A stretch of 64,000 nucleotides of DNA from positions 1 through 64,000 of the forward strand of contig MGPC01000005.1 in assembly GCA_001797315.1 (NCBI GenBank). Direction: 5' to 3'. The notes beneath the pieces are model-generated. The model worked only from the letters and a program-made list of their open reading frames with translations. It searched no databases and had not been told where the DNA came from. Shown here piece after piece: positions 14,888 to 28,773 of the stretch. This DNA is from Curvibacter sp. GWA2_64_110. Lineage in GTDB: Bacteria > Pseudomonadota > Gammaproteobacteria > Burkholderiales > Burkholderiaceae_C. The translations under genes were made by a program, and so were the position numbers. Within the stretch, counting starts at the first letter, position 1; every line of letters starts with the position of its first letter.

Positions 14888-14931
14888 GCAATATCCACCC
14901 ATAGTCTATTGCGACTGCGAAACCGGTGGGC

Positions 14932-14988
14932 GCGCCCGCCGGTCGCGGCCGGGTGATGAAGCACGGATTCGCTGATTAGTACAATTGG
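14932..14988 (-). pseudogene. Remnant of an integrase 5' end
   Basis: Read on the minus strand, this stretch encodes [19 protein letters not shown], which lines up without gaps with residues 2-20 of the island integrase ([19 protein letters not shown]). In the first eight aligned codons the only three nucleotide differences are all at third codon positions, the mark of coding ancestry. The aligned start codon is AGG instead of GTG, and the frame stops soon after, so it is not functional. It suggests an earlier related element at the same site. Confidence 0.65.
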
Positions 14989-15145
14989 CCTAGTTTTCCG
15001 GGCCAATCGAGGACAGAGGTTGCAGAAATGCCTTGTCCTGGGCCTGGGTTGATCGAACCGGGGCGTCGTGCCCCAGACGCGGATCGGGCCACCTCGATCA
15101 CGCCCCCACCAGGTTCGATCGTTTAATGATTTCTAAGGAATTTCC
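14989..15145 (+). promoter_or_regulatory. Native-side ychF leader region
   Basis: 157 bases between the integrase remnant and the interrupted ychF start, with no gene. It contains two foldable segments. One is AGGACA (around 15012) with TGTCCT. The other is GATCGAACC (around 15050) with GGTTCGATC (around 15113), enclosing GGGGC/GCCCC. The last ~35 bases match the end of the leader before the full ychF copy (TGATTTC.AAGGAATTT..C). A TACAAT hexamer at 14980 is a possible -10 box, but it lies in integrase-derived sequence. Confidence 0.45.
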
Positions 15146-15262
15146 ATGAGCTTGAAGTGCGGCATCGTCGGCCTGCCCAATGTCGGTAAATCCACCCTGT
15201 TCAATGCCCTGACCAAGGCCGGCATTGCGGCGGAGAACTATCCCGTAGGCAGGAATTTCTGA
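15146..15262 (+). pseudogene. ychF: ychF 5' fragment displaced by the island
   Basis: The first 33 codons of ychF ([20 protein letters not shown] and onward to AENYP), including the P-loop, then a switch into unrelated island sequence (VGRNF) and a stop. Codons 1-33 encode exactly the same protein as the start of the complete ychF at 27679. Codons 2 and 3 use different synonymous codons (AGC TTG against TCT CTC); after that only codon 20 differs (AAT/AAC). It has its own SD (AAGGAA). The 38-residue product would be non-functional. Confidence 0.92.
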
Positions 15263-15355
15263 GATTGCCTTTGGCCACAAGGACTTCCGGGATTACCTAG
15301 ACGACCATTGGCAAAGCCAGGACAAAGACTCCAGCAGAACACCCGCGTTAGCGGC
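15263..15355 (+). other. Left island end, non-coding
   Basis: Just inside the left junction. It contains GGCA..TGCC and TTGGC-type short inverted repeats and two AAGGAC/AGGACAAAGAC motifs. These are possible integrase arm sites, but no reading frame or clear repeat family is visible. Confidence 0.3.
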
Positions 15356-15421
15356 ATGAGGCCATCATAGGATGGCCTTTTCTTTTTGTCGGCTATAAAA
15401 GCGTCTGGTTTGATCGGGAGG
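15356..15421 (+). repeat. 66-bp leader repeat, copy A
   Basis: Copy A of a leader found again at 17133-17198, the same length and about five sixths identical. In order it has an inverted repeat GGCCATC/GATGGCC, a T-rich stretch, GTCGGC followed by TATAAA (possible -10), and GGGAGG, the ribosome-binding site of the gene at 15427. The inverted repeat plus TTTTC could be an operator over the -35 region or a small attenuator. Confidence 0.75.
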
Positions 15422-15426
15422 ACGCC

Positions 15427-17097
15427 ATGGCGTATCAATCGAAAGACTTGAGAGATCAGCTCACTCCGATAGCAGCGAAGCTTCGTGAGGGGCGGTCCGT
15501 TATCCGACCAGTAAGTCAAGCTACTCTTCGTCTTAAGGCCATTCCTGGGCGAGATCGGTATGCTGAGACCGTGGACAACATCCTGCGCTGGATGAACAAG
15601 CGTGCGGGAAGAACACTTCCCGACACTGCGTGGCAGCGTCAGTCTTTTGAGTTGTCTGAAATTGGCGCTCAAAGAACGGCGGCAGTTGCGGTCAAAGAGC
15701 CGCGATACTGGGCCGCACGACTTGACGATGCAGACAAAACTGTGCCCATGCGGACTTGGGTTACAGAAATTGGGGTTGGGGTTGACGAAAGCGGTGATGT
15801 TCTCTTCGGTACGCGGCTTATCTGTGCAACGCGGGGGAGTGATGAGCCGTTTGACCGAACTGTTCCAGGGTTTGTCAAAGGCATCATCGCTTCAGGTTCT
15901 GTTGAACTCGAAGGCATTGCAATCTCGGATAAGCCAAGCCTGATTTCTTCGCAAGCTGAGGTGGATGGCCTAGTCTCGTTGTTGGAATCTCCAGGGCGTT
16001 CTTGCGATGTGATTGTTTTTTCCCTGCCGAAGGGGTCGTCTAACGTTGAAGATGCGGCTGCATCTGTCGCTGATGTGCACGTAAAGCTAAATGGCGTTGC
16101 GCACGTTTTTGTTCTCAGTGGAGAAGCGAGCTATTTTCTTACTGAGTCTGTCGGGCGAGAGCTGTCAGTCTTTCATCAAGGCGTGCGTACTTACCGTCCC
16201 GGCTTTATGGCATGGATAGCCGAGCCTAGTGATCATCCACTTGCATTGCCCACTCGTATCGCTGGGTGGAACGAAGAGGGGGCGAGGGCTTTCGAGAAAT
16301 GGCTGGTGAATAGTGCCTTGGCTTCCTCTGTCCGTGGGCGATTGCGAGAGGAGAGATTGCCGGCGTTCAATACAGTTCGCCAATTGGCTGCCCAAGCGGA
16401 GCGTGCCGAAGTGCGAGCGGCGGGGGGGGACGATGTCGATCTGCTCAATCTTTATGAACAGGACAATGACCAACTGCGTACTGAGTTGAAGGAGCAGCGC
16501 GAACAGTACGATGGTTTGTTGACTGCCGCAGAGGCGGAAAGGGATACTGCCATCCAGGCTGCAAACTCTGCGAAAGCTCAGGCGCTTGAACGCCTCCATC
16601 GTATTCGCACCTTGGAGCAGCGATTCATTGCGACGACTGGAGTTCGAGAGCCGGCCTTGCCAGACTCGTTGGACCTATTCGAGGACTGGTGTCGCGACAA
16701 CCTGAGCGGTTCAGTTGAACTCGTTGGCCGCGCGTTTCAGGGGGTGCGCAAATCTGACTACCACGACCCGCAGTTCATATATCGTTCTCTTCTCTTGTTG
16801 CGTGACTACTATGTGCCAATGCGGCGCGAGAGTTTGCCAGACAACAGAAAGGCATACGCCGACGCGTTGAATAGCCTGGAGCTGGAAGAGAGTTCAACGG
16901 GTGATGGCGTCAAGTACTCCGCGGATCTGTATTCAGTTCAGTACGGAGGGGCAAGAAGGTCCCTTGATCGACATCTGAAGGGGAGCAATTCGCGTGATCG
17001 TCGATACGGATTTCGACTGTACTTCTTTTGGAGTGACGAGGAGCAGGTTGCCGTCGTAGGCTGGTTGCCGTCGCATTTGGATAACCGCGCAAGCTAA
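15427..17097 (+). CDS. Large coiled-coil protein, predicted defence component
   Basis: A 556-residue protein with no function I can assign. The N-terminal ~300 residues look globular and mixed alpha/beta. A coiled coil spans about 340-400 (DNDQLRTELKEQREQYDGLL and on). The C-terminal ~160 residues form a compact domain ending in YGFRLYFFWSDEEQ and VVGWLPSHLDN. That ending resembles the C termini of uncharacterised proteins found beside nucleases in bacterial defence loci; this is recollection, not a search result. GGGAGG lies 5 bases before the ATG. The next gene, an HNH nuclease, has a copy of the same leader, which argues for joint control. No membrane segment or signal peptide is visible. 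Confidence 0.6.
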   Translation: MAYQSKDLRDQLTPIAAKLREGRSVIRPVSQATLRLKAIPGRDRYAETVDNILRWMNKRAGRTLPDTAWQRQSFELSEIGAQRTAAVAVKEPRYWAARLDDADKTVPMRTWVTEIGVGVDESGDVLFGTRLICATRGSDEPFDRTVPGFVKGIIASGSVELEGIAISDKPSLISSQAEVDGLVSLLESPGRSCDVIVFSLPKGSSNVEDAAASVADVHVKLNGVAHVFVLSGEASYFLTESVGRELSVFHQGVRTYRPGFMAWIAEPSDHPLALPTRIAGWNEEGARAFEKWLVNSALASSVRGRLREERLPAFNTVRQLAAQAERAEVRAAGGDDVDLLNLYEQDNDQLRTELKEQREQYDGLLTAAEAERDTAIQAANSAKAQALERLHRIRTLEQRFIATTGVREPALPDSLDLFEDWCRDNLSGSVELVGRAFQGVRKSDYHDPQFIYRSLLLLRDYYVPMRRESLPDNRKAYADALNSLELEESSTGDGVKYSADLYSVQYGGARRSLDRHLKGSNSRDRRYGFRLYFFWSDEEQVAVVGWLPSHLDNRAS

Positions 17098-17132
17098 ATA
17101 AGAGTGTCTGCGAGGCGCGTATAGCGAAGTAG

Positions 17133-17198
17133 ATGAGGCCGTCATACGATGGCCCTTTTCATTTGTCGGCTATAACAACGGCTGGTTTGACTGGGAGG
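17133..17198 (+). repeat. 66-bp leader repeat, copy B
   Basis: Copy B of the leader at 15356-15421. The inverted repeat is GGCCGTC/GATGGCC (one G-T pair), followed by CTTTTC, GTCGGC with TATAAC, and GGGAGG. It ends 9 bases before the ATG of the HNH nuclease gene. Conserved blocks are separated by point changes rather than random drift, which fits a functional element. Confidence 0.75.
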
Positions 17199-17207
17199 GC
17201 AAACCGG

Positions 17208-18338
17208 ATGAATGAAAAGAAGCAACAGGCGGCATACAAGGCCAAGCTGCCCGCTATGAGGGCGTGGCTGATCGACGCTGCGCGAAACAATCGCAAGGTG
17301 ACGTACGGTGAGGTTATGCAGGCGTTCGATGTGGACCGTTTCAGCTTGCGACACGCTATGGACTATCTGGGCCACGAGGCTCGCGACAAGCGGGAGCCGA
17401 TCCTCACAGCGGTGATTGTCAACAAAAAGTCAATGCGCTGTTCATCTGGTCTGGCGAAGGAGTTTCATGTTTCCGACGATGAGGCGGAGCGGAGTGAGCT
17501 TCATAAGTATTGGAACGCCAGGGTGTCAGATCGTGCCAGTGCTAGGGCTACGCTTCCAACCTTAAAGACGGGCAAGCCCGTCTACCCATTCCGCATTGGC
17601 GACCAGTACCATCGAAAAGATGTGTTCCGAGTTATTGGCTTGCCCGAGGAGCCGACCGGCGGTAACTGGTTCACGGGTTATACCGCTCACGGCGATGATT
17701 GGTTCATCTTCTGCGGTGTTGGCACAGGTGGCCGGACGGGACACGACTATGGCAACTACTTCGATGGCGACCGGCTGGTCTGGTTCGCCAAGACGAATAC
17801 CAACATTCATCAGGTGTCGATTCGGAAGCTGACTAATCCGATCGGGAACGTGTATGTCTTCTTCCGCGAAGAGGATCGTGATCCGTTCACCTTTGCGGGG
17901 TTGGGCAAGGCCGTTGAGGTGTTCGATCAGACGCCTGTCAAGGTCGTTTGGAGCTTTCATGGCGGCGATGGCACGCGCCTACCGACCCAGATGCCGGAGG
18001 AGGTTGACGAGGACGAGGTCAGTACTGTGCCAGAGGGTGCCCGGCGCACCGTCCAGGTCAACGTGTACGAGCGCGATCCGAACGCTCGGCGCAAGTGCAT
18101 CGCTAAGTGGGGCGTGAAGTGCAGCGTTTGCTCATTTGATTTTGGTGAGCGGTACGGCGAGCTGGGCGAGGGTTTCATTCACGTGCATCATCTCAAGCCG
18201 CTTGGCGAGATCGGTGAGCAGTACGAGTTGAATCCTGTGGTCGATCTCCGGCCTGTGTGTCCAAACTGCCATGCAATGCTCCACCGAAAGCGGCCCGCGC
18301 TCAGTATCGATGAATTAACCCAGTTGCTAAATGGTTAG
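17208..18338 (+). CDS. HNH endonuclease with DUF3427-like domain
   Basis: A 376-residue nuclease. An N-terminal helical part (~1-100; WLIDAARNNRKVTYGEVMQA) is followed by a middle beta-rich domain (~125-270; YPFRIGDQYHRKDVFRVIG and GVGTGGRTGHDYGNYFDG). This resembles DUF3427 modules seen in restriction-type helicases and nucleases. The C-terminal HNH domain has CSVC, HVHHLKPLGE, an Asn and CPNCHAMLH, giving both the catalytic His and structural zinc cysteines. The start at 17208 has GGGAGG upstream; the in-frame ATG at 17133 belongs to the leader. A modification-dependent restriction enzyme is the best guess; a homing or mobile-element nuclease is less likely. Confidence 0.8.
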   Translation: MNEKKQQAAYKAKLPAMRAWLIDAARNNRKVTYGEVMQAFDVDRFSLRHAMDYLGHEARDKREPILTAVIVNKKSMRCSSGLAKEFHVSDDEAERSELHKYWNARVSDRASARATLPTLKTGKPVYPFRIGDQYHRKDVFRVIGLPEEPTGGNWFTGYTAHGDDWFIFCGVGTGGRTGHDYGNYFDGDRLVWFAKTNTNIHQVSIRKLTNPIGNVYVFFREEDRDPFTFAGLGKAVEVFDQTPVKVVWSFHGGDGTRLPTQMPEEVDEDEVSTVPEGARRTVQVNVYERDPNARRKCIAKWGVKCSVCSFDFGERYGELGEGFIHVHHLKPLGEIGEQYELNPVVDLRPVCPNCHAMLHRKRPALSIDELTQLLNG

Positions 18339-18352
18339 AGGAGGAAATGCAC

Positions 18353-19078
18353 GTGAGTCAATTTGATGATGCAAGAGCATTGGTGGAACACAGTAAGCAA
18401 GAGCTGGAGAAGATTCGCTCGGCATATGCTGGATCTCTCAAGTCGCAGCAAATTTCTCCTGTTTTTTTGGTAGAGATCAAGAATCTAATGGAGAACTTGC
18501 GCTCGGCACTTGATTTCTCCGCGGTCGGTCTGTTCCAGAAATACGGAAACGGCAAGCCGAATGCCAAGATCTACTTTCCATACGCATCGCTGAATCAAGA
18601 TGCAACGAAGTTCCGGGCAGCAGGGCGGATAGAAGCTTGTATTCCTGGCATTACGGCATCTCGTCCGGATGTTGTTCTGGCTCTGGAGTCCGTCCAACAT
18701 TTCGCCGGTGCTGAGTGGAGCTGGATGCCGCACTTCATGGAGCTAAATAATGAAAACAAGCACCAGAGGCTGACGCCCCAGACCAGGCAGGAGTCGCGGC
18801 AGCTCAAACTATCATCAGATTCTGGCGCAGCAATCATTCTTGGCGATGGCGCTAGCATTCAAATTGGAGGCGGTGCATTCATCCAATTGGGTGACGCGCT
18901 CATTCCAGGTGGGCAGAGTATCAGTCCAACTAATCCAGGGCAGATCATCGGTGGCAATCAAGAGTTGACGGTCTGGGTCTCGTTCCATTTCTCTTCAAAC
19001 AATATGCCTGTCATGCCACTGCTTGAGCAGGCTACCGCTGGGGTTGAGAAGATTGTTCAGAGCCTTGCGGTGCTATGA
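18353..19078 (+). CDS. Unrecognised protein, third gene of predicted defence cluster
   Basis: About 241 residues. The N-terminal ~130 residues are helical, with a conserved-looking LMENLRSALDFSAVGLF followed by IYFPYA, reminiscent of HEPN-like or similar helical bundles, but without a clear RxxxxH ribonuclease motif. Residues ~155-205 are glycine-rich and beta-like (IILGDGASIQIGGGAFIQLG). The GTG at 18353 is preferred because AGGAGG sits 8 bases upstream; the ATG at 18347 is only 2 bases from it. It follows the HNH gene by 14 bp, so it is probably in the same transcript. Function unknown. Confidence 0.55.
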   Translation: MSQFDDARALVEHSKQELEKIRSAYAGSLKSQQISPVFLVEIKNLMENLRSALDFSAVGLFQKYGNGKPNAKIYFPYASLNQDATKFRAAGRIEACIPGITASRPDVVLALESVQHFAGAEWSWMPHFMELNNENKHQRLTPQTRQESRQLKLSSDSGAAIILGDGASIQIGGGAFIQLGDALIPGGQSISPTNPGQIIGGNQELTVWVSFHFSSNNMPVMPLLEQATAGVEKIVQSLAVL

Positions 19079-19087
19079 CGAAAAAGA

Positions 19088-19741
19088 TCAGCACATTCGC
19101 TGTACCTGCCCCAATGACCAAACTCCACCACGCGGCGCCGTGATCCCCAGGTCATTCAGCCGCTCAACAATGGCCCGTCGGCTCAGCCCCTGAGCTATGA
19201 GTCCATCCAAAACGGGCTTTAGCCGCTCGCGGAACGCCTTGGCGGCCTCCTGGCGCTCTTCTGTGTGCCGGCGCAGGTTGGTACGCCCGGTAGCTCCCAA
19301 AACCACGCCACGGGCCTTTGCAGCCGCCAGAGCCGCTTTGGTGCGTTCACTGATCTGATCGCGCTCCCACTCGCTCATGACCGCGTGCATCTGGATCATG
19401 ACCTTGTTCGCGTTGGGCATGTCGGCGGCGATGAAGTCCACGCCAGTCTCGATCAACCCACTGACAAAGTGAACGTTGCGGGCCAGACGGTCGAGCTTCG
19501 CGATCAACAGCGTCGCGCCTGACTTTCTGCACAGCTCAAGCGCTTTACGCAGCTCAGGACGCTTTTCCAGAGCGTTTGCACCCTTGCCCGTCTCGACCTC
19601 GACAAACTCGCCTATGGCCTTCCTATCGCGTCCTGAGAGGTATTGCGTGACTGCCTGCCGCTGGGCTTCGAGTCCCAAGCCGGAAGCTCCCTGTCGCTGA
19701 GTGCTGACGCGGTAGTAAGTGACGAATTGATCATGAGCCAT
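19088..19741 (-). CDS. Serine recombinase (resolvase/invertase family)
   Basis: A 217-residue small serine recombinase. The catalytic serine is in YYRVSTQRQG near residue 12; other family blocks are AKLDRLARNVHFVSGL, MPNANKVMIQMHAVMSEWER and the long E-helix. A C-terminal helix-turn-helix follows (LIAQGLSRRAIVERLNDLGI). Such enzymes resolve cointegrates or invert segments. The start at 19741 has AAGGAG upstream. It converges with the defence cluster, ending 9 bp from it. Its target site may lie in the non-coding stretch upstream. It is not the enzyme matching the ychF junctions, which fit the tyrosine integrase. Confidence 0.92.
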   Translation of the reverse strand: MAHDQFVTYYRVSTQRQGASGLGLEAQRQAVTQYLSGRDRKAIGEFVEVETGKGANALEKRPELRKALELCRKSGATLLIAKLDRLARNVHFVSGLIETGVDFIAADMPNANKVMIQMHAVMSEWERDQISERTKAALAAAKARGVVLGATGRTNLRRHTEERQEAAKAFRERLKPVLDGLIAQGLSRRAIVERLNDLGITAPRGGVWSLGQVQRMC

Positions 19742-19969
19742 GCTGAATCTCCTTGGTGTCCACATGAAAGGACGTCGGTCCTGTACGTGGACAAACGATA
19801 GGACGCCGGCAAGCTGGCGCCAAGGATGCCGGGCGTGGGCTGTTGTATCGGCGAGGAAGCTGGCAAAACGCTTGCAGCCGGGGTGGGGAAGCGCTACGGA
19901 CGGCAGTGCAAGAAAAATCCCCGTGAGCCGTCATCTGGTGCGGGTTTCAAGAGGATCTCCTGTTCCCTA

Positions 19970-19991
19970 TTTGTTCACTGTTTGTTCACCC
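19970..19991 (+). repeat. Tandem 11-bp direct repeat
   Basis: TTTGTTCACTG directly followed by TTTGTTCACCC. One helical turn apart, as expected for protein-binding sites; only two units are present, so calling it an iteron array would go too far. Confidence 0.5.
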
Positions 19992-20261
19992 TAAAACGGA
20001 GGTGTTGAACACTTATACGGGCGTGCCGGTGCCGCGTATGGTGGTGAAGAGACGCGGGGCTGGATTAAGCGAAGTCCTAGAAAATCCGAGGAGGGCTGGA
20101 GGTACTGCGTTCCTCGTTCCGGCCTGGGTTTGACGGAACCTTATACAAAGCCGGAGGCTGTGGACCTGAAGCAGACATTCTTGTTCTCTCCCGCTGGGTT
20201 TATTTCCTTGAATGAAGAAGACCCTCATTCCGGCGGCTAGGGAAAAAGACTTTGTATCTTG

Positions 20262-20326
20262 GCAGCGTCTCGCGCAGCGAGCGCTGCAGTCGCGCGTCAG
20301 CGCGACCAGAAAGTTACTTCTTTCTG
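20262..20326. other. Three consecutive hairpins
   Basis: GCAGCG/CGCTGC, GTCGCGC-GTCA-GCGCGAC and CAGAAAG-TTACTT-CTTTCTG stand head to tail without gaps between the last two. The stems are perfect. This may be an origin or recombination site, or the core of a structured RNA. Confidence 0.45.
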
Positions 20327-20477
20327 TTAAGAGATGTGAGTTATAGGTTATGTCTCGGAAAACATGTGAGGCTGGAAATTTTGCTAGATTTCATGCGGCT
20401 TCCGAGAGAGGATGTCCGCACGATGTACGCCGCCATGTCCGCGACGATGGCCGCAGACATGGCCTCCGACATCGATG

Positions 20478-22109
20478 TCAGGCTAATTTCGCAAGCTGCT
20501 TGTCGATCTTTTTCAACAAGTCACAAACAGTACGCTCGCTTAGGGCTGGAACCCCGCGGATCAGGCCAGCCAAGACTGCGATCTCCCGCCTTGTTGGTGA
20601 CGCAGATTTCAGCAGCTCGCGGGCCTTGGCGTGAGCTATGTACTTTTCCTTCTCGGATGCAACGCGTCTATCCCTCTCTGCCCACCGGTTGACTGCCAGC
20701 GTGACAGTTTCAAGGGGCGCAGGGACGCGCTTCCCGTCTACGCGAGAGTATCGAGTCAAATTTCCAAACAGCGTCTGCACAGACTCGCCGCACAATGCCC
20801 GCAGCTGAACCTGCAACGGGTGTGTAAGCCCCAAGATGGCTTCGGCGCGGTACTCGTTTGTGATGCTGCGGGTTGCGAACTCCTGGGCCAAAGCAAGCGG
20901 AAATTCCGAATCCTTCTTGAAGAGCGGCCGCCACTGCGCCTCGGCAGGCGAGATGCGGTACTGCCTGCAGTGCAGCCAGTGGCAGTCGATCACAACTCGA
21001 TCCTGTTGAATGAGTTCGTGCGCCGGTTGATGAAGAGAATTTTTCTTCGGAATAGAGATTTTGGAGCGGAAAGCCGGCGCCCAAAGTCCATGCACGTTCA
21101 ACGCCATGGAGGTTTCGCAATAGCGTTCTCGAATCCTCAAATAATCGTCAGGTTTTCGGTACTCTTGAGCCAGTGCCTCAAGCTCGGCCATCAGGTCTTC
21201 ATGGTTGATAAGCCTGGGGGCGCTTGGAGCGGCCACGACTGAGTCCGAAAGCTCAGGTTTGTTGGCGGGCGTTTCTTCAGCAGCGGCAGCTGATGCCGGC
21301 GAAGGCGGCACAGTTGAGGTCGTACCTTGGACTTTGTGAGTATTGGGCACCTGCGCCGTTGTGATCGCTGACGGCTGTGCAGTATCGGTTTTCGTGCTCG
21401 CCGCTATGACGCCACTATTGGACGTTGCGTGGAGTTTCAAGTGGTGACTGCGAGCGCATTCGGCCTTGAACTTTGAGTTCATCCACAGGGGAAAGCCATC
21501 GAGCTGGAACATCGTGTAATGCTCTATGGCGTCAGGTGGGCATGCTGGCAGGCGATACCAGTCCAAAGGCTGGGATTTGTAGGTTTCATCAAGCAATGCA
21601 TTAAACCGATGCATGAGCGCATCGCGCATAGCCAGCCATTCCGCTGGCCCTACTCCGTCACGCAAAGGAAGGATGACTCGCCAGCGAGGTGCGGTCGGGC
21701 TGTGGCGGTATGTCGAATGAACCAGTCCTCTTAGACCGCGAAGCCGCCGGCGAATCTTGTCGCTCGATGTGCCGTTCTCAAGATCAAACACGACGGCGTG
21801 CAGCAGAATATTGTCGATGTGCGAACTGACGATGCCATCGGTTCTTTTCGCCTTGACGGAGATAGGCCGCCAGTGACGTGCAGGAATTAACTCGCAATTG
21901 AAAATGTCTGCGTAGCGCTCGCAATAGGTTGTGAGCGACTCTTTCCCATGCCAGTGAGGCTTGTGGAAAGCGAGTACGAATCCCTCCCAGGGCGCGGAAA
22001 GGTGACCGGCAAGCTCTGCGGAGCCAGCTTCACGGTATTGCACCGGTATTGAGATTGACGAAGCCTGGTTGATTTCGGCTGCAGTTGGGATAGGTGTTGT
22101 CACGGTCAT
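20478..22109 (-). CDS. Primase-polymerase-like replication protein
   Basis: A 543-residue protein. The N-terminal third resembles bacterial prim-pol/plasmid replication domains: HAVVFDLENG (acidic motif), then STYRHSPTAPRWRVILPLRD and the LDWYRLPACPPDA block, where related proteins have a D..R...LP.CP motif. A low-complexity Ala/Thr/Pro linker spans ~225-300, and a helical C-terminal part follows, ending in a likely helix-turn-helix (SERTVCDLLKKIDKQLAKLA). AAGGAGG lies 5 bases before the ATG. It probably initiates replication of the excised island. No helicase domain is present, so host helicase would be needed. Assignment rests on motifs only. Confidence 0.6.
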   Translation of the reverse strand: MTVTTPIPTAAEINQASSISIPVQYREAGSAELAGHLSAPWEGFVLAFHKPHWHGKESLTTYCERYADIFNCELIPARHWRPISVKAKRTDGIVSSHIDNILLHAVVFDLENGTSSDKIRRRLRGLRGLVHSTYRHSPTAPRWRVILPLRDGVGPAEWLAMRDALMHRFNALLDETYKSQPLDWYRLPACPPDAIEHYTMFQLDGFPLWMNSKFKAECARSHHLKLHATSNSGVIAASTKTDTAQPSAITTAQVPNTHKVQGTTSTVPPSPASAAAAEETPANKPELSDSVVAAPSAPRLINHEDLMAELEALAQEYRKPDDYLRIRERYCETSMALNVHGLWAPAFRSKISIPKKNSLHQPAHELIQQDRVVIDCHWLHCRQYRISPAEAQWRPLFKKDSEFPLALAQEFATRSITNEYRAEAILGLTHPLQVQLRALCGESVQTLFGNLTRYSRVDGKRVPAPLETVTLAVNRWAERDRRVASEKEKYIAHAKARELLKSASPTRREIAVLAGLIRGVPALSERTVCDLLKKIDKQLAKLA

Positions 22110-22117
22110 TCATCCTC

Positions 22118-22135
22118 CTTGTTTGATCGAACAAG
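22118..22135. promoter_or_regulatory. 18-bp near-perfect palindrome at the rep start
   Basis: CTTGTTTGATCGAACAAG has one mismatched pair and abuts and partly overlaps the AAGGAGG ribosome-binding site of the replication gene on the minus strand. It is the likely operator for replication control; the XRE protein of the island is a candidate binder. Confidence 0.6.
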
Positions 22136-22283
22136 TTGGTGACGATAGAAACCGCACGTTGGCGAGACAATGGTTCTGGTTGGCAACATGCAAAGTGCAG
22201 CAAAAATCCCACAGACAGTTGACGCGCCAACGAGCGGGTGTTCTAGCGCAGCAATGCCTGTCAAAAAACTCATAAACGTAGTG

Positions 22284-22769
22284 ATGATGAGAAAAATCCT
22301 TGCAACGCTTTTGTTGTTCCTGGCGTCTTGGTGTCAGGCGGAAATCATTCACGGCGTGGTCATTGCAGTGGTGGATGGGGACACAATCACGGTTCTTGAC
22401 GCGGCGCATGTGCAGCATCGGATTCGACTAGCCGGTATCGATGCGCCAGAGAAACGCCAAGCCTATGGGCAGAGGTCGAAACAAAGCCTGAGTGAGTTGG
22501 TTTTCAACCATGCGGTTGAAGTACATACCTACAAGCGTGATCGTTACGGGCGCGAGATCGGCAAAGTGCTGCACAACGGGCAGGACGTGAACCTGGAGCA
22601 GATTCGTAGAGGCATGGCATGGTTCTATCGCCAGTACGAGCGAGAACTGACAAAAGAAGACCGGATGCTCTATGACGCGAGCGAAGCAAGCGCGAGGCTC
22701 GACCGGGTTGGGCTGTGGCGCGATGAGTTGCCCGCGCCGCCTTGGGAGTTTCGCCACTTGAAACAGTGA
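22284..22769 (+). CDS. Secreted thermonuclease-like (SNase) protein
   Basis: About 161 residues: a signal peptide (MRKILATLLLFLASWCQA) followed by a staphylococcal-nuclease domain. Core motifs are VVDGDTITVLDA, RIRLAGIDAPEKRQAYG (catalytic Arg and Glu), YKRDRYGREIG (second catalytic Arg) and GMAWFYRQY. It degrades DNA and RNA, here outside the cytoplasm. Several in-frame starts exist (22170, 22257, 22284, 22287); 22284/22287 gives a standard signal peptide but only a weak ribosome-binding site. It leads a run of small exported proteins. Confidence 0.88.
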   Translation: MMRKILATLLLFLASWCQAEIIHGVVIAVVDGDTITVLDAAHVQHRIRLAGIDAPEKRQAYGQRSKQSLSELVFNHAVEVHTYKRDRYGREIGKVLHNGQDVNLEQIRRGMAWFYRQYERELTKEDRMLYDASEASARLDRVGLWRDELPAPPWEFRHLKQ

Positions 22770-22839
22770 TCGGATGCTGCGCATAATAGCCTCCGCCACC
22801 CGCCGTGGGTGGCGTCAAACCACCATAGGGAGGCACGCG

Positions 22840-23061
22840 ATGAGAGTGTTTGGTGTTGTATTGATCTCTCTTGCCTTGGCGTTTGCTGGAGTCACCGCCG
22901 ATGCAAAAGGCAAATCCGGTGGTGGCAGCCGTCCGTACTACGGTGGCGGCAAGCACACGAGCAGTCATGACGGTTCGTATAAAGGCGGCTCAGGCAGTTC
23001 GCACAGGGGCGGCACCTATAAGAACGACAAGACAGGTGACCGCTATGGCCAGCACAAGTAG
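22840..23061 (+). CDS. Small secreted glycine-rich protein
   Basis: A 73-residue protein with a signal peptide (MRVFGVVLISLALAFAGVTADA) and a mature part rich in G, S, K, H and Y (KGGSGSSHRGGTYKNDKTGD, ending RYGQHK). Similar short GG..Y..P/D..T..RY..H tails occur in exported proteins found beside SNase genes on mobile elements. GGGAGG lies 7 bases before the ATG. A perfect hairpin CCACCC/GGGTGG lies at about 22797-22813 in the leader. Function unknown. Confidence 0.75.
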   Translation: MRVFGVVLISLALAFAGVTADAKGKSGGGSRPYYGGGKHTSSHDGSYKGGSGSSHRGGTYKNDKTGDRYGQHK

Positions 23062-23164
23062 TCGCACGCTTGGTGTCTCCGCGAGCATTAAAGGTACCCG
23101 GCTTCCGTTACTAGATTTTGTCCAAGGTTAGGTTCCTAGTTCGTGAGCGACTTGGGAGATGTAA

Positions 23165-23614
23165 ATGCGGACGCTCTTCTTCGTGCTACTTCTTCTCACT
23201 GGAACTGCCGGGATTCGCGCGGCGGACTATCCAACTATTCCCCTGGAAAGATTGTTATCCAAGCAGCAGCAGGATGATCTACAGATTGGGAGCATGACCT
23301 CAAGACAACGTGAGGCTCTGCGACGGACCATCATCGATGTCTATCGTGCTGGTCTAGGTAAAGGGATTGAGGCCTCGTCAAGAACAAGCGCCACACAGGG
23401 TGTTATCGAAAGCCAAATCGATGGCGACTTCGAGGGGTGGGATGGCGACACTGTCGTCAAGTTGACCAACGGCCAAATTTGGCAGCAAAGTGAATACCAC
23501 TATGAGTACCACTATGCCTTCATGCCTGAGGTTCTTATCTATCCTTCTGGGGGCGGCTACAAGATGAAGGTGGACGGTGCAGATGAAGCGGTGGCAGTGC
23601 GCCGTCTGAAGTAA
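23165..23614 (+). CDS. Exported conserved protein of the nuclease module
   Basis: 149 residues with a signal peptide (MRTLFFVLLLLTGTAGIRA) and a conserved-looking C-terminal domain (IESQIDGDFEGWDGDTVVKL, TNGQIWQQSEYHYEYHYAFM and YKMKVDGADEAVAVRRLK). I recognise the pattern from uncharacterised exported proteins on bacterial mobile elements but know no function. GGGAGATGTAA precedes the ATG. Its stop overlaps the next start by one base (TAATG), so the two are translationally coupled. Confidence 0.75.
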   Translation: MRTLFFVLLLLTGTAGIRAADYPTIPLERLLSKQQQDDLQIGSMTSRQREALRRTIIDVYRAGLGKGIEASSRTSATQGVIESQIDGDFEGWDGDTVVKLTNGQIWQQSEYHYEYHYAFMPEVLIYPSGGGYKMKVDGADEAVAVRRLK

Positions 23615-24042
23615 TGGATCTCGACGAGATTTGGCGCCAAGGACGTATTCCCGTCGTTTTTCGACGTGAACGGCCGCTCCCGCTGCTGATCAAGCTTCCT
23701 TATTCTTTAAGTAATAAAGAGTGGCTACGTGACGGTCAAGTGCGCAAGCCGTCGTGGGACGCGGCGTATAAATCATGGGAGGTGCCCCAGGCTTGGTTTG
23801 AGAGAGTAGTACGCCTATGCGTACGTCGGCATCGGTGGTGCTATGTCGTCCAACTTCACAGGGAGCGGCAGGTTTGCGCTCCTGCTTGCTGGAACGCGGA
23901 AGGTATGGATTGTGAATGTTCTTGCATGGGGGCAAATCACGGTGGTGGACAACCAGTAGGTCGCTGGTACGAGGTTGATGAAACCTTTGCCGTGTCCTGG
24001 GGCATTCAGCGTTATGCGGTTAGGCTTGTACGGGCGAAATAG
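23614..24042 (+). CDS. Cysteine-rich cytoplasmic protein, unknown function
   Basis: 142 residues without a signal peptide. The N-terminal half resembles small nucleic-acid or substrate-binding folds (PLLIKLPYSLSNKEWLRDG, WDAAYKSWEVPQAWFERVV). The C-terminal half has a cysteine cluster (CAPACWNAEGMDCECSCMGA) followed by NHGG, which could bind a metal. It starts one base inside the stop of the exported protein before it, so it is made with it. It may be an immunity or processing partner of the exported module; this is inference from position. Confidence 0.6.
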   Translation: MDLDEIWRQGRIPVVFRRERPLPLLIKLPYSLSNKEWLRDGQVRKPSWDAAYKSWEVPQAWFERVVRLCVRRHRWCYVVQLHRERQVCAPACWNAEGMDCECSCMGANHGGGQPVGRWYEVDETFAVSWGIQRYAVRLVRAK

Positions 24043-24157
24043 TCTCTGAGTTGGCTGTTCAGTTCTGCTATCACTGGCTGTCTTTGATGGGCCGCCGCTG
24101 GACGTCTAGCGTCATTTTCGCCAGACTCGAAGTCATCAAACTTGTACTTTTAGTGTC

Positions 24158-25204
24158 ATGCCCGTCGAACTAATGGATTTCAACCAGGCAATACGCCGAG
24201 CATCTGCCTCAGGTCATGTTCATGCGTTGCTTGGAAACGGCTTTAGCAGAGCCTGTCGTGACGGCATATTTTCTTATGGCGCCCTCTTTGATCGTGCAGA
24301 TTTCGCTGGTCTATCCCCTTACTGCAGAGCTTCTTTCGAGGCGCTCGGTACAACAGATTTCGAGGCGGTCATCAAGGCGTTGAAGCACGCATCTATTTTG
24401 CTTTCAACATACGAGCCAGAGGCGACTGACTTGGCGGCGATGATGCGTGACGATGCGGAGCGACTGCGCGAGGTCCTAGTCAAGGCAATAGCAGGAAGCC
24501 ATCCAAGTTGGCCTGGCGAAATTGAGCCTGCGGCGTATGCAGCTTGCAAAACGTTTCTGTCTAACTTTGAGCGTGTATATACGCTTAACTACGACCTCTT
24601 GTTGTATTGGGCTTTCATGCAGGACGCGATTGATCCTCCTCTTGAGTGTGACGACGGATTTCGCTACCCAGACGACGGGCCGCAAGAGTACGTGACGTGG
24701 GAAGTCGAAAATAGCTTTGATCAGAAAATTTACTATTTGCATGGAGCGCTGCATCTGTTTGACGCTGGCTCAGAACTCCAAAAATACACATGGCGAAATA
24801 CCGGCGTTCGTCTTACTGATCAGGTTCGGGACGCCTTGGCACACTCAAAATATCCATTATTCGTGTCCGAGGGGACATCCGCAGAGAAGTTGGAGCGCAT
24901 TAAGCATAGCGGTTACTTGCATCGCGGCCTTGCGAGCATGCCAAAAATCTCAGGCTCTTTGTTCGTCTATGGCCTTTCGTTCGCGGACAACGATGACCAT
25001 GTACTGCGCATGATTGAGGTCGGGAAGATTAGCAACTTGTATGTCAGCATTTTTGGTGAACCAAGTGATGCGCATAACGCTGCAATAGTCCGTCGGACCC
25101 AAAAATTAGTCGATGCTCGCCGAGCCAGAAATGTTGGGAGGCGACGACCGCAGGATCTTGATGTGCGCTTTTTCGACGCAACGTCCGCAAAGGTCTGGGG
25201 GTGA
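24158..25204 (+). CDS. DUF4917 family protein (SIR2-like), predicted defence NADase
   Basis: 348 residues matching the DUF4917 pattern, a branch of the SIR2-like fold: VHALLGNGFSRACRDGIFSY (nucleotide-binding GNGFS), VYTLNYDLLLYW, YYLHGALHLF, PLFVSEGTSAEKLERI and FVYGLSFADNDDHVLRMI. SIR2-like proteins in mobile islands often act in anti-phage defence by cleaving NAD. Visible signs of low G+C and a weak ribosome-binding site set it apart from the core genes. It stands alone, with no partner gene close enough to be coupled. An ATG five codons later is an alternative start. Confidence 0.8.
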   Translation: MPVELMDFNQAIRRASASGHVHALLGNGFSRACRDGIFSYGALFDRADFAGLSPYCRASFEALGTTDFEAVIKALKHASILLSTYEPEATDLAAMMRDDAERLREVLVKAIAGSHPSWPGEIEPAAYAACKTFLSNFERVYTLNYDLLLYWAFMQDAIDPPLECDDGFRYPDDGPQEYVTWEVENSFDQKIYYLHGALHLFDAGSELQKYTWRNTGVRLTDQVRDALAHSKYPLFVSEGTSAEKLERIKHSGYLHRGLASMPKISGSLFVYGLSFADNDDHVLRMIEVGKISNLYVSIFGEPSDAHNAAIVRRTQKLVDARRARNVGRRRPQDLDVRFFDATSAKVWG

Positions 25205-25225
25205 GTGCTGCATTGCCAATGCCTC

Positions 25226-25294
25226 ACCAAGGCGATCGGATTGACTGATGAAAGCCTCCCGTCAAAACCCTCGAAAAACCTGCCAGACGCCCGT
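25226..25294 (+). repeat. Direct repeat, left copy (about 69 bp)
   Basis: Matches 26297-26365 at equal length, most closely over the last ~37 bases (TCAAAACC.., then AACCTGCCAGACGCCCG). The two copies enclose the XRE regulator and a small exported protein. The right copy touches the integrase stop codon, so this copy marks either an older island end or a duplication made when the two-gene cassette came in. Confidence 0.65.
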
Positions 25295-25316
25295 TTAAAC
25301 GATCTAATGGGCTGTG

Positions 25317-25781
25317 CTATTTTCCCAAAGGTGCCCACCTGACTGCCGCAACGATGCTCCACTTACCGCTCGGGTTTGGCCGCCGCCACATCGCGTGGCC
25401 CATCTGACGCAGATATTCCAGCGCGTCCTCGAAGTCTTCGAAGGTCGCCTCGTCTTCCTTCTTGCCCACTGTGTACTTGCCTGCGTTCTTCAGTCCTGAG
25501 TGAAAGCAGGTGTTGTCTGCTGCGTAGGGTACGAACAGCTCTTGCCTGGGGGCCGGCTGCGGTGTGCTGGTCGTGAACAGATCGGCCACCACGACGCCCA
25601 GACCGTCAGCCAGCTTCTGGATCGCGTCGAGCGACGTATTGGCCCCGCCACGCTCAATCCGGCTCATGTATGAGCGGGCGAACCCGCAGCGGTCCGCCAG
25701 GTCTTCTTGCGACAGTTTGGCGATGGCTCGCAGTTCCTTGATTCGCTGACCGAACTGCTGACGAAGGTTTGACTTTTTCAC
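25317..25781 (-). CDS. XRE-family transcriptional regulator
   Basis: 154 residues. The N-terminal ~70 residues are a lambda-repressor-type helix-turn-helix (KLSQEDLADRCGFARSYMSR then IERGGANTSLDAIQKLADGL). The C-terminal half (LFVPYAADNTCFHSGLKNAG and TFEDFEDALEYLRQMGHAMW) looks like a small ligand or oligomerisation domain that recurs in similar regulators. It is divergent from the small exported protein gene, and 81 bp between them hold both promoters. It may control the island's replication or excision functions. Confidence 0.88.
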   Translation of the reverse strand: MKKSNLRQQFGQRIKELRAIAKLSQEDLADRCGFARSYMSRIERGGANTSLDAIQKLADGLGVVVADLFTTSTPQPAPRQELFVPYAADNTCFHSGLKNAGKYTVGKKEDEATFEDFEDALEYLRQMGHAMWRRPNPSGKWSIVAAVRWAPLGK

Positions 25782-25862
25782 GCCGCGAACTTTGCGGCGT
25801 TGTATATTGAAAGGCCACGCTCTAATCGTGGACGCACTAAACGTGACAATTAAGGAGAGAAA

Positions 25863-26252
25863 TTGAAGAACGAAGACTTTCAGGCAGGCATGAGTGCTGG
25901 CAGCAGGGGCGGAAACCAGACAGTCAAAGCCCTGAGCGTTATTGCTGCGATCGCTGTCACGACCTTTGCACTACCCGCGTTGGCTGGCAGGGACGAGGTC
26001 AACGTGGCGAAGGGTGTCATCATGGCGAATTACACCCTGGAGAAATGCAGGTCTATGCAGACCCCTGATGACGTAATCAAAGGCCAGGTGAAGGTCATGC
26101 GCCAGCAGGGAATATCCAGCAACGATATTCAGCAAGGCTTTCAGGAAGGCATGATGGAAGTCGAGATGAAATACCCCGGCAACAAGAAGCCGCCAAAGTC
26201 TGAGTGCGGTAAAGCGCAATACCTGTACGACCAGTTTCTGAAGTTTCTTTGA
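25863..26252 (+). CDS. Small exported protein, unknown function
   Basis: 129 residues from a TTG start with AAGGAG 5 bases upstream; an ATG at 25890 would give a 120-residue product with a more typical signal peptide (VKALSVIAAIAVTTFALPALA). The mature part has two cysteines and many charged residues (YTLEKCRSMQTPDDVIKGQV, ending KSECGKAQYLYDQFLKFL). I do not recognise the family. It is divergent from the XRE gene and shares its cassette between direct repeats. Confidence 0.6.
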   Translation: MKNEDFQAGMSAGSRGGNQTVKALSVIAAIAVTTFALPALAGRDEVNVAKGVIMANYTLEKCRSMQTPDDVIKGQVKVMRQQGISSNDIQQGFQEGMMEVEMKYPGNKKPPKSECGKAQYLYDQFLKFL

Positions 26253-26296
26253 CTTCGTGGTCCTGGCCTGGGGTGTGAAAATCTGGCCAGGACTTC

Positions 26297-26365
26297 GCCA
26301 AAGCCATCGGATCGCCCGACAGCTACCCGCCCATCAAAACCGCCGCAAAACCTGCCAGACGCCCG
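26297..26365 (+). repeat. Direct repeat, right copy (about 69 bp)
   Basis: Partner of 25226-25294. It ends one base before the integrase stop codon, and its last bases form the left arm of the hairpin at 26350-26384. Confidence 0.65.
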
Positions 26366-26384
26366 CCTATGCGGTCTGGCAGGT
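26350..26384 (-). terminator. Hairpin at the integrase 3' end
   Basis: Perfect 11-bp inverted repeat ACCTGCCAGAC (26350-26360) / GTCTGGCAGGT (26374-26384) spanning the integrase stop codon. No clear T-run follows, so it may stabilise the mRNA end or act as a protein site rather than a classic terminator. Confidence 0.5.
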
Positions 26385-27512
26385 ATCCGTGAGCAGCAGG
26401 CCCATCGCGGCCTGTATCTGCTCCAGTCCATCGCGCACATCCTCGACGCCAAAGCCCACGTAATGCCGGTGCAGAACATCGGTCTTGGGTGCGGTGTGGT
26501 TGAGGATTCTCCTCATCACGGCTGAACTCAAGCCGATCTTCTCGCCCACGGTCGCCACGAGTTTGCGCAGGTCGTGCAGCATGAACCTGGGTGAACCCGC
26601 CCGCATCGCCATATCGGACAGGTGTTCGGCACTGACGCCTGCGAACAGCTCGTCTTGATCATCAAGACCGTTACAGCGTCGCTCCAAAATCTCCCGCATC
26701 AGCGGTGTGATCGGCAAGGAGTGAGGCTTGCCGTTCTTGGTCTCAGGAATGCTCAAAACGCCCGCCATGAGGTCGATCTGCGCCCGACGTAGCTCCCTGC
26801 ACTCATTGCGTCTCAAGCCCGTGTAGAGCGTCAGGTACAGGAGGTCCCGCTGTTTCTCGCCCAGCTTGTCCACGGCCATCTTCCAGGCCGGCAGGTCAGT
26901 CTCTTGAAGCACCCGAGCGCGGGGCTGGGAACGGTCAGGCATTAATCCCGCCGCTGCCAGTTTGGCAAACGGGGCCTCAAGACTTAGCCCATGAACCGCG
27001 TTGAGGTACTTGACCAGGGCGCCCACGATCCCGCGCCCGACTTCAACCAGGGAGGCGCCTTTGGTTTGCGCGAAGGCATGGCAATGCTCGACAAACTCCC
27101 GACTCCCCAAGTCCTGAACAGAGCGGTCCAGCCAGTCGCCGAAGTGAGTCCTCATCATCGAGTCATAGCGCTTGCGGCTTGAGGGTTTGATGCCTTTGGC
27201 CTCGCAGTACGCAGCCAGAGCCTCCCGCATGGTCGGCAATGCCAGCGGAGCCGCTGCGCTTGGCATTCGACCCGCCCGGCACTCCCGTATGACCTCCAGC
27301 GCCCTTGATCTGGCCTCGTCCACGGTCATCAAAGGCCAGTAGCCCAGCATCATGCGGAACTGACGACCGCAGACGCTGGTGGCGATCAAGAAGGTGCGCT
27401 TGCGGGCATTCAGACGCACGCCAAAGCCGCAAAGAACCCGATCCCGCAGGATGCGCCCGTCTGTCGCGGTCGAGCGGCGAAGCAGGGATTCACTGATCAG
27501 TACAATCGGCAC
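26367..27512 (-). CDS. int: Tyrosine-type site-specific integrase
   Basis: 381 residues. The N terminus is an arm-binding domain of the DUF4102 type ([20 protein letters not shown] and [20 protein letters not shown]), followed by a core-binding SAM-like domain and the catalytic domain. Active-site blocks are [16 protein letters not shown] (Arg), [16 protein letters not shown] (HxxR) and [19 protein letters not shown] (His and catalytic Tyr). The GTG start has GGGGGAA upstream. Its first codons are antisense to the leader that drives the restored ychF. This enzyme is the natural candidate for insertion into ychF codons ~4-33. No excisionase gene is evident. Confidence 0.95.
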
Positions 27513-27678
27513 CAGTTTCCCCCAGGCAAAACGAGGACAAAAAATTGAGGAACTTGGGCATTTCTGGCCCGGTTCCTCGATAAGTCACGCCGGTTACGCA
27601 TGGCGTTTATCAGGTGCCTCGACGATGCCCACATTGGGTTCGATGGTGCAGAGGGGATTGATTTCAAAGGAATTTTTC
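27513..27678 (+). promoter_or_regulatory. Island-supplied ychF leader
   Basis: 166 bases between the integrase start and the restored ychF ATG. It replaces the native leader at 14989-15145 and is similar to it at both ends but not in the middle. It contains a strong hairpin GAGGAAC..GTTCCTC (about 27547-27577) with inner GGGC/GCCC, a smaller hairpin ACGCC/GGCGT, and the left arm of a long inverted repeat. AAGGAA is the ribosome-binding site. The promoter was not located with confidence. Confidence 0.5.
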
Positions 27679-27814
27679 ATGTCTCTCAAGTGCGGCATCG
27701 TCGGCCTGCCCAATGTCGGTAAATCCACCCTGTTCAACGCCCTGACCAAGGCCGGCATTGCGGCGGAGAACTATCCCTTCTGCACCATCGAACCCAATGT
27801 GGGCATCGTCGAGG
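27617..27814. repeat. 36-bp perfect inverted repeat across the ychF start
   Basis: Left arm 27617-27652 in the leader is the exact reverse complement of 27779-27814, which is ychF codons ~34-45; allowing 3 mismatches extends the arms to 45 bp (27613-27657 and 27774-27818). The 126 bases between the cores hold the ribosome-binding site, start codon and the duplicated codons 1-33. The right arm begins where the duplicated segment ends. In the mRNA the arms could pair into a long stem with the start site in the loop. Confidence 0.9.
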
Positions 27815-28773
27815 TGCCGGATCCGCGCCTGAACGAGTTGGCCAAGATCATCAACCCCGAGCGCATCGTGCCGGCCATCGTCGAGTTCGTCGACATTGCC
27901 GGCCTGGTGGCCGGTGCCAGCCAGGGTGAGGGCCTGGGCAACCAGTTCCTGGCGCACATCCGCGAGACGGACGCCATCGTCAACGTGGTGCGCTGCTTCG
28001 AGGACGACAACGTGATCCACGTGGCCGGCCGGGTCGACCCGATTGCCGACATCGAGGTGATCCAGACCGAGCTCTGCCTGGCCGACCTTGGCACGGTGGA
28101 CAAGTCGCTGGCGCGTTATACCAAGGTATCCAAGTCGGGCAACGACAAGGAAGCCGCCAAGCTGGTGCAGATCCTCACGCGCGTGCAGGCCGCGCTCAAC
28201 GAAGGCAAGCCGGCACGCACGCTGGAGTTCAGCAAGGAAGACCAGGCCCTGCTCAAGCCGCTGTGCCTGATCACGGCCAAACCGGCGATGTTCGTCGGCA
28301 ACGTGAGCGAGACCGGCTTTGAGAACAATCCGTTCCTGGATCGCTTGAAAGAATATGCTGCCACGCAGAATGCCCCGGTGGTGGCGATCTGCGCCAAGAT
28401 GGAGGCCGACATGGCCGACATGAGCGACGAAGACCGCGAGTTGTTCCTGTCCGAGATGGGGCAGGACGAACCGGGCCTGAACCGCCTGATCCGCGCCGCC
28501 TTCAAGCTGCTGGGCCTGCAGACCTACTTCACCGCCGGCGTGAAGGAAGTGCGTGCCTGGACCATCCACATCGGTGACACCGCGCCGCAGGCGGCCGGCG
28601 TGATCCACGGCGACTTCGAGCGTGGCTTCATCCGCGCCCAGACCATTGCTTTCGAGGACTTCATCGCCTGCAAGGGCGAGCAAGGTGCCAAGGATGCGGG
28701 CAAGATGCGCAGCGAAGGCAAGGAATACGTCGTCAAGGACGGCGATGTGATGAACTTCCTGTTCAACGTCTGA
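27679..28773 (+). CDS. ychF: Ribosome-associated ATPase YchF (OLA1 family), restored by the island
   Basis: 364 residues, the normal length for YchF. It belongs to the Obg GTPase class but prefers ATP and acts in stress and translation control. The P-loop is GLPNVGKST; the altered base-specificity motif is NVSE in [13 protein letters not shown]; the C-terminal TGS domain includes [14 protein letters not shown]. Codons 1-33 probably derive from the island and the rest from the host gene; the protein is uninterrupted and keeps all motifs. The reading frame is open far upstream, but the ATG at 27679 with AAGGAA fits the family start. Confidence 0.95.

Follow-up and report, generated by a model that had tools for sequence, protein, structure and literature searches.

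The 64,000-nt stretch of DNA analysed here (the window; Curvibacter sp. GWA2_64_110, GCA_001797315.1, contig MGPC01000005.1, forward strand), to whose full length all coordinates refer, carries a genomic island inside the coding sequence of ychF, the gene for an almost universal ribosome-associated ATPase. The island belongs to a family with a dedicated tyrosine integrase that is located at ychF in different genera, where its members duplicate the first 33 codons of the gene, leave scars, and carry in their leader an inverted copy of ychF codons that covaries with the host gene. Taken together, the comparisons make it probable that islands of this ychF-specific family replace the promoter, leader, start codon and first 33 codons of ychF, and that the antisense sequence in the leader acts on the ychF mRNA. 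Rebuilding of the ychF 5′-end by a site-specific island within the gene had been proposed in a previous reading of the window made from its letters alone (the sequence-only reading), and this proposal held: the island brings a leader, a start codon and codons 1–33. The features on which the argument turns are listed below with coordinates and strand.

14918..15145, + strand: leader of the left-hand ychF stub, a scar from an earlier island, with a relic of integrase codons, TACAAT and a decayed antisense arm
15146..15262, + strand: ychF stub of 38 codons, comprising codons 1–33 (15146–15244), then five island codons and a stop
15245..15389, + strand: left island end, with the motif CAGGACA (15317–15323) and a terminator-like hairpin (stem 15358–15379)
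26367..27512, − strand: ychF-specific tyrosine integrase (Pfam Phage_integrase, PF00589, 3e-09; Arm-DNA-bind_3, 4.2e-06)
27501..27506, + strand: TACAAT, proposed −10 element of the island-borne ychF promoter
27522..27544, + strand: repeated CCAGGCAAAACGAGGACAAAAAA, proposed arm-type integrase sites, counted in leaders as [CG]AGGACA
27609..27658 (leader −70 to −21), + strand: antisense arm, an inverted copy of ychF codons 32–48 in which 46 of 50 bases match 27773–27822
27679..27777, + strand: island-borne ychF codons 1–33
27679..28773, + strand: complete ychF reading frame after integration (364 aa)
27773..27822, + strand: pairing partner of the antisense arm, mostly the host-owned part of ychF

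The duplicated ychF start and its integrase family

Codons 1–33 of ychF were found twice, as the sequence-only reading had reported, at 15146–15244 and 27679–27777 on either side of an integrase-bearing island; the spacing of ~12.3 kb given there was inexact, the distance from start to start being 12,533 bp. The direct repeat extends over 111 nt with 91% identity, and none longer is listed for the region. The copies were said to differ at synonymous sites only, and codons 1–33 indeed agree at 93 of 99 nucleotides without any amino-acid change; codon 2 is TCT in the island-borne copy and AGC in the stub. The G+C content is 0.55 in the island and 0.64–0.65 in both flanks, and no tRNA gene was found in the window. 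The window YchF (364 aa) shares 81–98% identity with those of 21 other genus members, and its C-terminal domain gave a single match in the genome (41 contigs). The empty site is represented by the 21 other genus genomes, which carry ychF uninterrupted, and in one of them (G001) the leader aligns with the window stub leader across 400 nt. Of the 22 genus genomes that have a full ychF, none that lacks the island was found to share the 5′ duplication, with the exception of G014. This island-less genome has a second ychF 5′-end, codons 1–36, at a contig end (L035/L066 1–109, and L067), and both of its ychF 5′-ends have the island-like GATCAGTACAAT near the start codon.

The integrase contains the stretches GLRRNE, HDLRK, NHT and RHYVG, which we take to be the sites of the catalytic residues. 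Matches at E ≤1e-30 were identified in 7 of 399 family genomes, 12 of 397 genomes of a second, overlapping family draw and 9 of 399 order genomes, each count including the window's own genome. Within the genus, the integrase occurs in the window genome alone; 5 of 26 genomes match at E 0.001, the other four reaching 2.8e-9 at best. A scan of named genomes gave six loci, including ones in Limnohabitans, Polaromonas and Rhodoferax. The subfamily, defined as loci with at least 50% identity to the window integrase, comprises 19 distinct loci, several of them fragmentary. Of the 19, 17 are located at ychF, directly or within 2.4 kb, the other two being broken fragments; a consistent location of integrase relatives at another target, one of the two results that the sequence-only reading had named as refuting it, was not observed. 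Of the 17, 15 adjoin a full ychF, three of them with cargo between integrase and ychF (1.0 kb in L082, 1.3 kb in L084 and 2.3 kb in L083), and two (L045, L047) adjoin codons 1–33 only. Insertion in dusA was not encountered among the 17 placed loci, every one of which is at ychF. Eleven full-length ychF-located integrases form one clade (support 100/99). A more distant integrase (L053/L071, 35–36% identity) is also located at ychF, on a very long branch with weak support, and no ychF was found within the ~1.5 kb examined around 27 integrase loci of ~24–31% identity. Viral contigs, plasmids and phages searched for subfamily integrases yielded only relatives of 23–27% identity.

Both copies of codons 1–33 are present in seven loci of different genera, several of them in single-contig genomes (G390, G152, G822); these islands are 3.7–12.5 kb long, with the integrase gene at one end and the target-derived direct repeats at both. 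The island and host copies are identical in nucleotide sequence in three of the seven (L048, L060, L062) and differ at 3–10 sites in the rest, with one amino-acid change in total, so that six of the seven pairs are unchanged in protein sequence. In L048, L060 and L062 the two copies are closer to each other than to any other genome compared, and their identity suggests homogenisation or a very recent origin. Two further loci were judged by eye: the 7.1-kb contig of L047 closes on itself through codons 1–33, as an assembly collapse of two identical repeats would also appear, and in L045 the integrase, leader and codons 1–33 are joined to left-end-like sequence, as in a tandem or a circle. The terminator-like hairpin at the left end was the one found by a terminator scan against 0.7 in shuffles, which is not significant alone; it is present in three of nine left ends compared. 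Capture of the host ychF promoter for the island cargo was set aside because this hairpin lies just inside the left end, although only those three ends carry it.

Leaders, a promoter-like element and scars of past islands

The similarity of the two ychF copies extends ~230 bp upstream of their starts (14918–15145 and 27439–27678; score 57, maximum of 300 shuffles 15), and on the right it reaches into the divergently transcribed integrase gene. A remnant of the integrase's opening codons survives in the left leader (62.5% over 24 aa). Since this remnant lies in the stretch shared with the right leader, we identify the left leader as what is left of a previous island of this family, and ychF has thus been occupied at least twice. 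The sequence-only reading, in which the native start is left as a stub, is to be corrected in that the leader in front of the stub is not simply native. The same left leader is common to the island-less genus members L010/L068, L014 and L015, and the stub leaders of L061 and L072 also look like scars by eye.

The 145 full ychF loci surveyed came from 22 genus genomes, from 110 family genomes (out of 169 that gave a match, with some overlap with the genus genomes) and from the integrase loci. With a leader score of at least 38, a threshold set after the ranking was seen, 10 of the 130 loci without an adjacent subfamily integrase have an island-type leader (scores 38–106; shuffles ≤17); seven of these scars belong to the genus and three to other genera. 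Four loci outside the ten, L013, L089, L135 and L016 (scores 22–26), may also be scars. Neither an integrase nor a stub was found within ~19 kb upstream in the six of the ten scars that were extended. TCT as codon 2 occurs in 8 of the 145 loci, namely the window, six genus members with island-like leaders and one other.

Of the 15 integrase-bearing loci, 13 have the sequence TACAAT between −200 and −141, as do all ten scars and 6 of the 120 others. This count is not fully independent, as the element lies within the stretch used to recognise scars. Leaders with a second motif, [CG]AGGACA, number 10 among the 15 integrase-bearing loci, 2 among the ten scars and 5 among the 120 others; the motif also lies exactly 73 nt beyond codon 33 in five of nine left ends. 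We take it to be a putative arm-type site of the integrase, which has a match to an arm-binding domain. That scars keep TACAAT in 10 of 10 cases and the proposed integrase site in 2 of 10 suggests that TACAAT serves ychF and that the other motif served the integrase. Judged from the leaders compared, the 5′ module consisting of TACAAT, leader, ribosome-binding site, start and 33 codons outlives the island.

The antisense arm, its proposed action and competing explanations

Across the family, the leader arm is an inverted copy of ychF codons about 35–50. All 15 integrase-bearing loci and six scars gave an inverted match score of at least 40, as against 25 or less in the other 124 (single-locus shuffle maxima 16–31). 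The window leader with the first 52 codons folds at −139.7 kcal/mol (z −11.2; z 0.21 in one island-less relative), and the predicted stem encloses the start codon and the ribosome-binding site. On average, 44.0 pairs (41.3–48.0) are expected between leader and codons 35–50 in the 15 integrase-bearing loci, 36.1 (18.0–41.4) in the 10 scars and 5.2 (0–20.2) in the 120 others. A native regulatory hairpin of ychF was rejected as an explanation, the genes without sign of a past island lacking the stem. The longest arm was observed in L082 (3725–3863), as an inverted copy that reaches to about codon 68–71 of ychF.

In an alignment of 15 sequences, the stem comprises 42 pairs with 94.1% of cells paired, and RNAalifold recovers the same stem. 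Cells changed on both sides of the stem number 43, compared with 16.7 ± 3.1 in shuffles (0 of 500 reach it), and double changes were found at 13 stem pairs, a number reached by 12 of 500 shuffles. The arms fit their own hosts with a score of 1134, compared with 892 ± 46 for permuted hosts (0 of 20,000 permutations). Among transition mismatches in the integrase-bearing loci, 41 of 58 preserve a G-U pair and 17 are of the opposite type, whereas the preserving type makes up 48% in a host-host control (p about 0.001); the ten scars show 40 and 23, respectively. With local alignments the ratio in the integrase-bearing loci is 41 to 20.

In the mechanism proposed from these sequences, the circular form of the island would carry an attP whose core corresponds to ychF codons 1–33, and its crossover with the host gene would most probably fall near codons 32–34, given that identity ends there in most codon 1–33 pairs. 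The host's first 33 codons would stay at the left as the stub, and the ychF rebuilt at the right would be composite, with promoter, leader, start and codons 1–33 from the island and the sequence from codon 34 on from the host, which likely places ychF under island control. One strand of the stem is host sequence; leader and gene would therefore share a transcript, and form a stem of 41–48 pairs around the ribosome-binding site and start, only while the island is integrated. We read the inverted copy as a putative RNA element acting on ychF; the stem may tune the ychF message, for instance by drawing RNase III cleavage or by slowing translation. RNase III generally accepts long perfect RNA stems as substrates, and a first guess is therefore that integration lowers ychF expression or makes it conditional. 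In an extended version, which we regard as improbable, the integration state itself would be read through RNA: in the integrated state, cis pairing with host codons 35–50 would set ychF output, whereas after excision a transcript running through codons 1–33 to the left-end terminator would become a short RNA, the free antisense arm of which could silence the restored ychF in trans, so that the cell would feel excision or loss, and the arm would evolve with each host's ychF.

Several observations weigh against the explanation by a ychF-specific, RNA-acting island family. Two broken integrase pieces (G329 and G252) have no ychF within 20 and 29 kb, respectively, and L069 shows no stub within ~15.7 kb of sequence. 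The L053 integrase (36%) is at ychF without an antisense arm, and L053/L071 thus indicate that targeting of ychF does not require the arm. TACAAT is missing from 2 of 15 integrase-bearing loci, and a sigma-70 promoter scan of 27380–27700 found none, for which reason TACAAT is described here as a putative promoter element only. The own-host rank of the arm is 112 of 145 for L081, 40 for L048 and 21 for L060, and the ribosome-binding site and start are predicted to be no more and no less accessible than in other ychF genes. Covariation would also be expected from DNA copying out of ychF; own-host tracking was accordingly discarded as proof of RNA function, and the G-U excess alone separates the two, modestly. 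The sequences are related, which makes the p-values too good and the G-U excess modest support for RNA pairing, and with local alignments six scars show no such excess (9 vs 8).

DNA copying is the strongest of the competing explanations, though an unlikely one: template switching or conversion would repeatedly copy host codons 35–50, inverted, into the leader, and the copy would have no RNA function. As ychF gene copies would show, mismatches between arm and host fall mostly at codon position 3 (61 of 95); certain arms fit other genera better than their own host, arms are of unequal length, the one in L082 extending to about codon 68, and codons 1–33 look homogenised, the island and host copies being identical in three of seven islands while the best other genome reaches 84/93 to 96/99. 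Copying does not, however, predict the excess of G-U-compatible mismatches, and the arm is found in every integrase-bearing locus of the subfamily. Moreover, the arms of L048 and L060 rank only 40th and 21st despite codons 1–33 identical to the host copy, and a single copying process does not account for both. It is distinctly improbable that the inverted copy instead belongs to attP or attR as a DNA site used in recombination, for example a second, inverted core by which the start segment would be inverted and ychF turned off. Its position between the proposed arm-type sites and the core, and the core-like CCCCTT next to codon 34 that the arms of some islands include, would fit such a site, but this stretch is absent from 6 of 15 arms (L048, L050, L061, L069, L070, L072), and the arm remains pairable in scars without an integrase. 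An inversion switch was rejected as a general function on the ground of these six arms; no flipped loci were noticed, although the full ychF loci were chosen by an intact start and flipped ones would thus be missed. Finally, a repeat arising by chance, by assembly duplication or by homologous recombination without site specificity is barely credible. The division of the window genome into 41 contigs speaks for it, whereas the same layout in seven loci of different genera, several in single-contig genomes, and the dedicated integrase clade contradict it, and the recurrence of the arrangement excludes it.

Related systems and cargo

The island supplies the start and first codons of the gene that it splits, as do the 5′-end-replacing islands (the dusA and prfC class). 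The principle is already known, since dusA islands and SXT in prfC work alike. The view of the sequence-only reading that 5′-end insertion with a new promoter is unusual is correct in that it is rarer than 3′-end insertion, whereas the available portions of earlier papers already describe it for dusA islands (PMC4482086, PMC8409611) and for SXT in prfC (PMC8409611). Like the ychF islands, the dusA islands encode a tyrosine integrase, interrupt a conserved housekeeping gene within its 5′-end and carry varied cargo (PMC4482086, PMC8409611), and according to the same portions they supply a promoter and about 35 new N-terminal residues, as the ychF island likewise brings a start, first codons and a putative promoter. 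Their excision was shown by PCR, and the rebuilt gene is expressed, at a lower level than before integration (PMC8409611, in the part available). The ychF islands differ in their target and in a rebuilt N-terminus that is unchanged in six of seven pairs, compared with 61% kept in the dusA example, and their leader has an antisense copy of host codons, of which the accessible text of the dusA papers (PMC4482086, PMC8409611) makes no mention. Integrases of Acinetobacter, Moraxella and Alteromonas phages are 23–27% identical to that of the window.

SXT/R391 in prfC likewise occupies the 5′-end of a protein gene and provides a new promoter and N-terminus (PMC8409611, in part). It differs in its target, prfC, and in being a large conjugative element. 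To our knowledge, no antisense leader is known for SXT/R391. A pneumococcal prophage is also an integrating element by ychF with its integrase beside the gene, and differs in that it belongs to Firmicutes and inserts upstream of ychF at a 14–26 bp site without replacing codons, no antisense arm being described in the portions available (PMC6375853, PMC8637289, PMC10383233). Its integration alters the ychF promoter sequence and lowers ychF mRNA, as stated in the part available (PMC6375853). In the open-licence literature, neither a ychF-specific island family in Burkholderiales nor a proteobacterial ychF island was found, with engD included as a search name, nor, judged from titles, antisense to a target gene in an island leader. 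If the proposed explanation is true, the family would give mobile DNA a means of rewiring a core gene permanently, through repeated takeover of promoter and start, a lasting scar and host-matched antisense. The antisense arm is a ready test case for RNA control linked to integration, and the scars allow past visits of mobile elements to be counted at a site that now seems empty.

The window island carries the following further genes.

15427..17097, + strand: candidate defence protein HEC-07 (PADLOC PDLC04161, E 3.2e-200)
17133..18338, + strand: DUF3427/HNH nuclease-like protein (Pfam PF11907, 3.4e-07; HNH, 4.6e-04, just under its cut-off)
19088..19765, − strand: serine resolvase (Pfam PF00239, 5.3e-28)
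22170..22769, + strand: Staphylococcal-nuclease-fold protein (Pfam PF00565, 8.5e-25)
24158..25204, + strand: DUF4917/candidate defence protein PDC-S21 (Pfam PF16263, 4.3e-71; PADLOC PDLC04960, 6.1e-118)
25317..25781, − strand: Cro/C1-type regulator (Pfam HTH_31, 4.2e-14)

Scans of island proteins with Pfam, NCBIfam and PHROGs, in which not each open reading frame (ORF) was compared with each library, found no phage structural or packaging genes indicative of a prophage. The left-end terminator region is repeated on both sides of the HEC-07 gene (15356–15421 and 17133–17198, 83%), as if this gene had been added as a module carrying its own left end, and a 51-nt direct repeat (25255–25305 and 26327–26377, 80%) brackets the regulator and a small gene beside the integrase. 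The six other islands contain 28 ORFs of at least 120 aa, of which 20 were scanned with PADLOC and 9 with Pfam. No PADLOC match was obtained among the ORFs scanned in the L060 and L061 islands; the cargo of the others includes a type I restriction-modification set in L062, a dCTP-deaminase-like defence protein in L083, a GmrSD-like protein in L047 and a catalase in L048. YchF has been reported to act on catalase and oxidative stress, and the pairing of a catalase gene (L048 9328–10335) with a short ychF island may not be a matter of chance.

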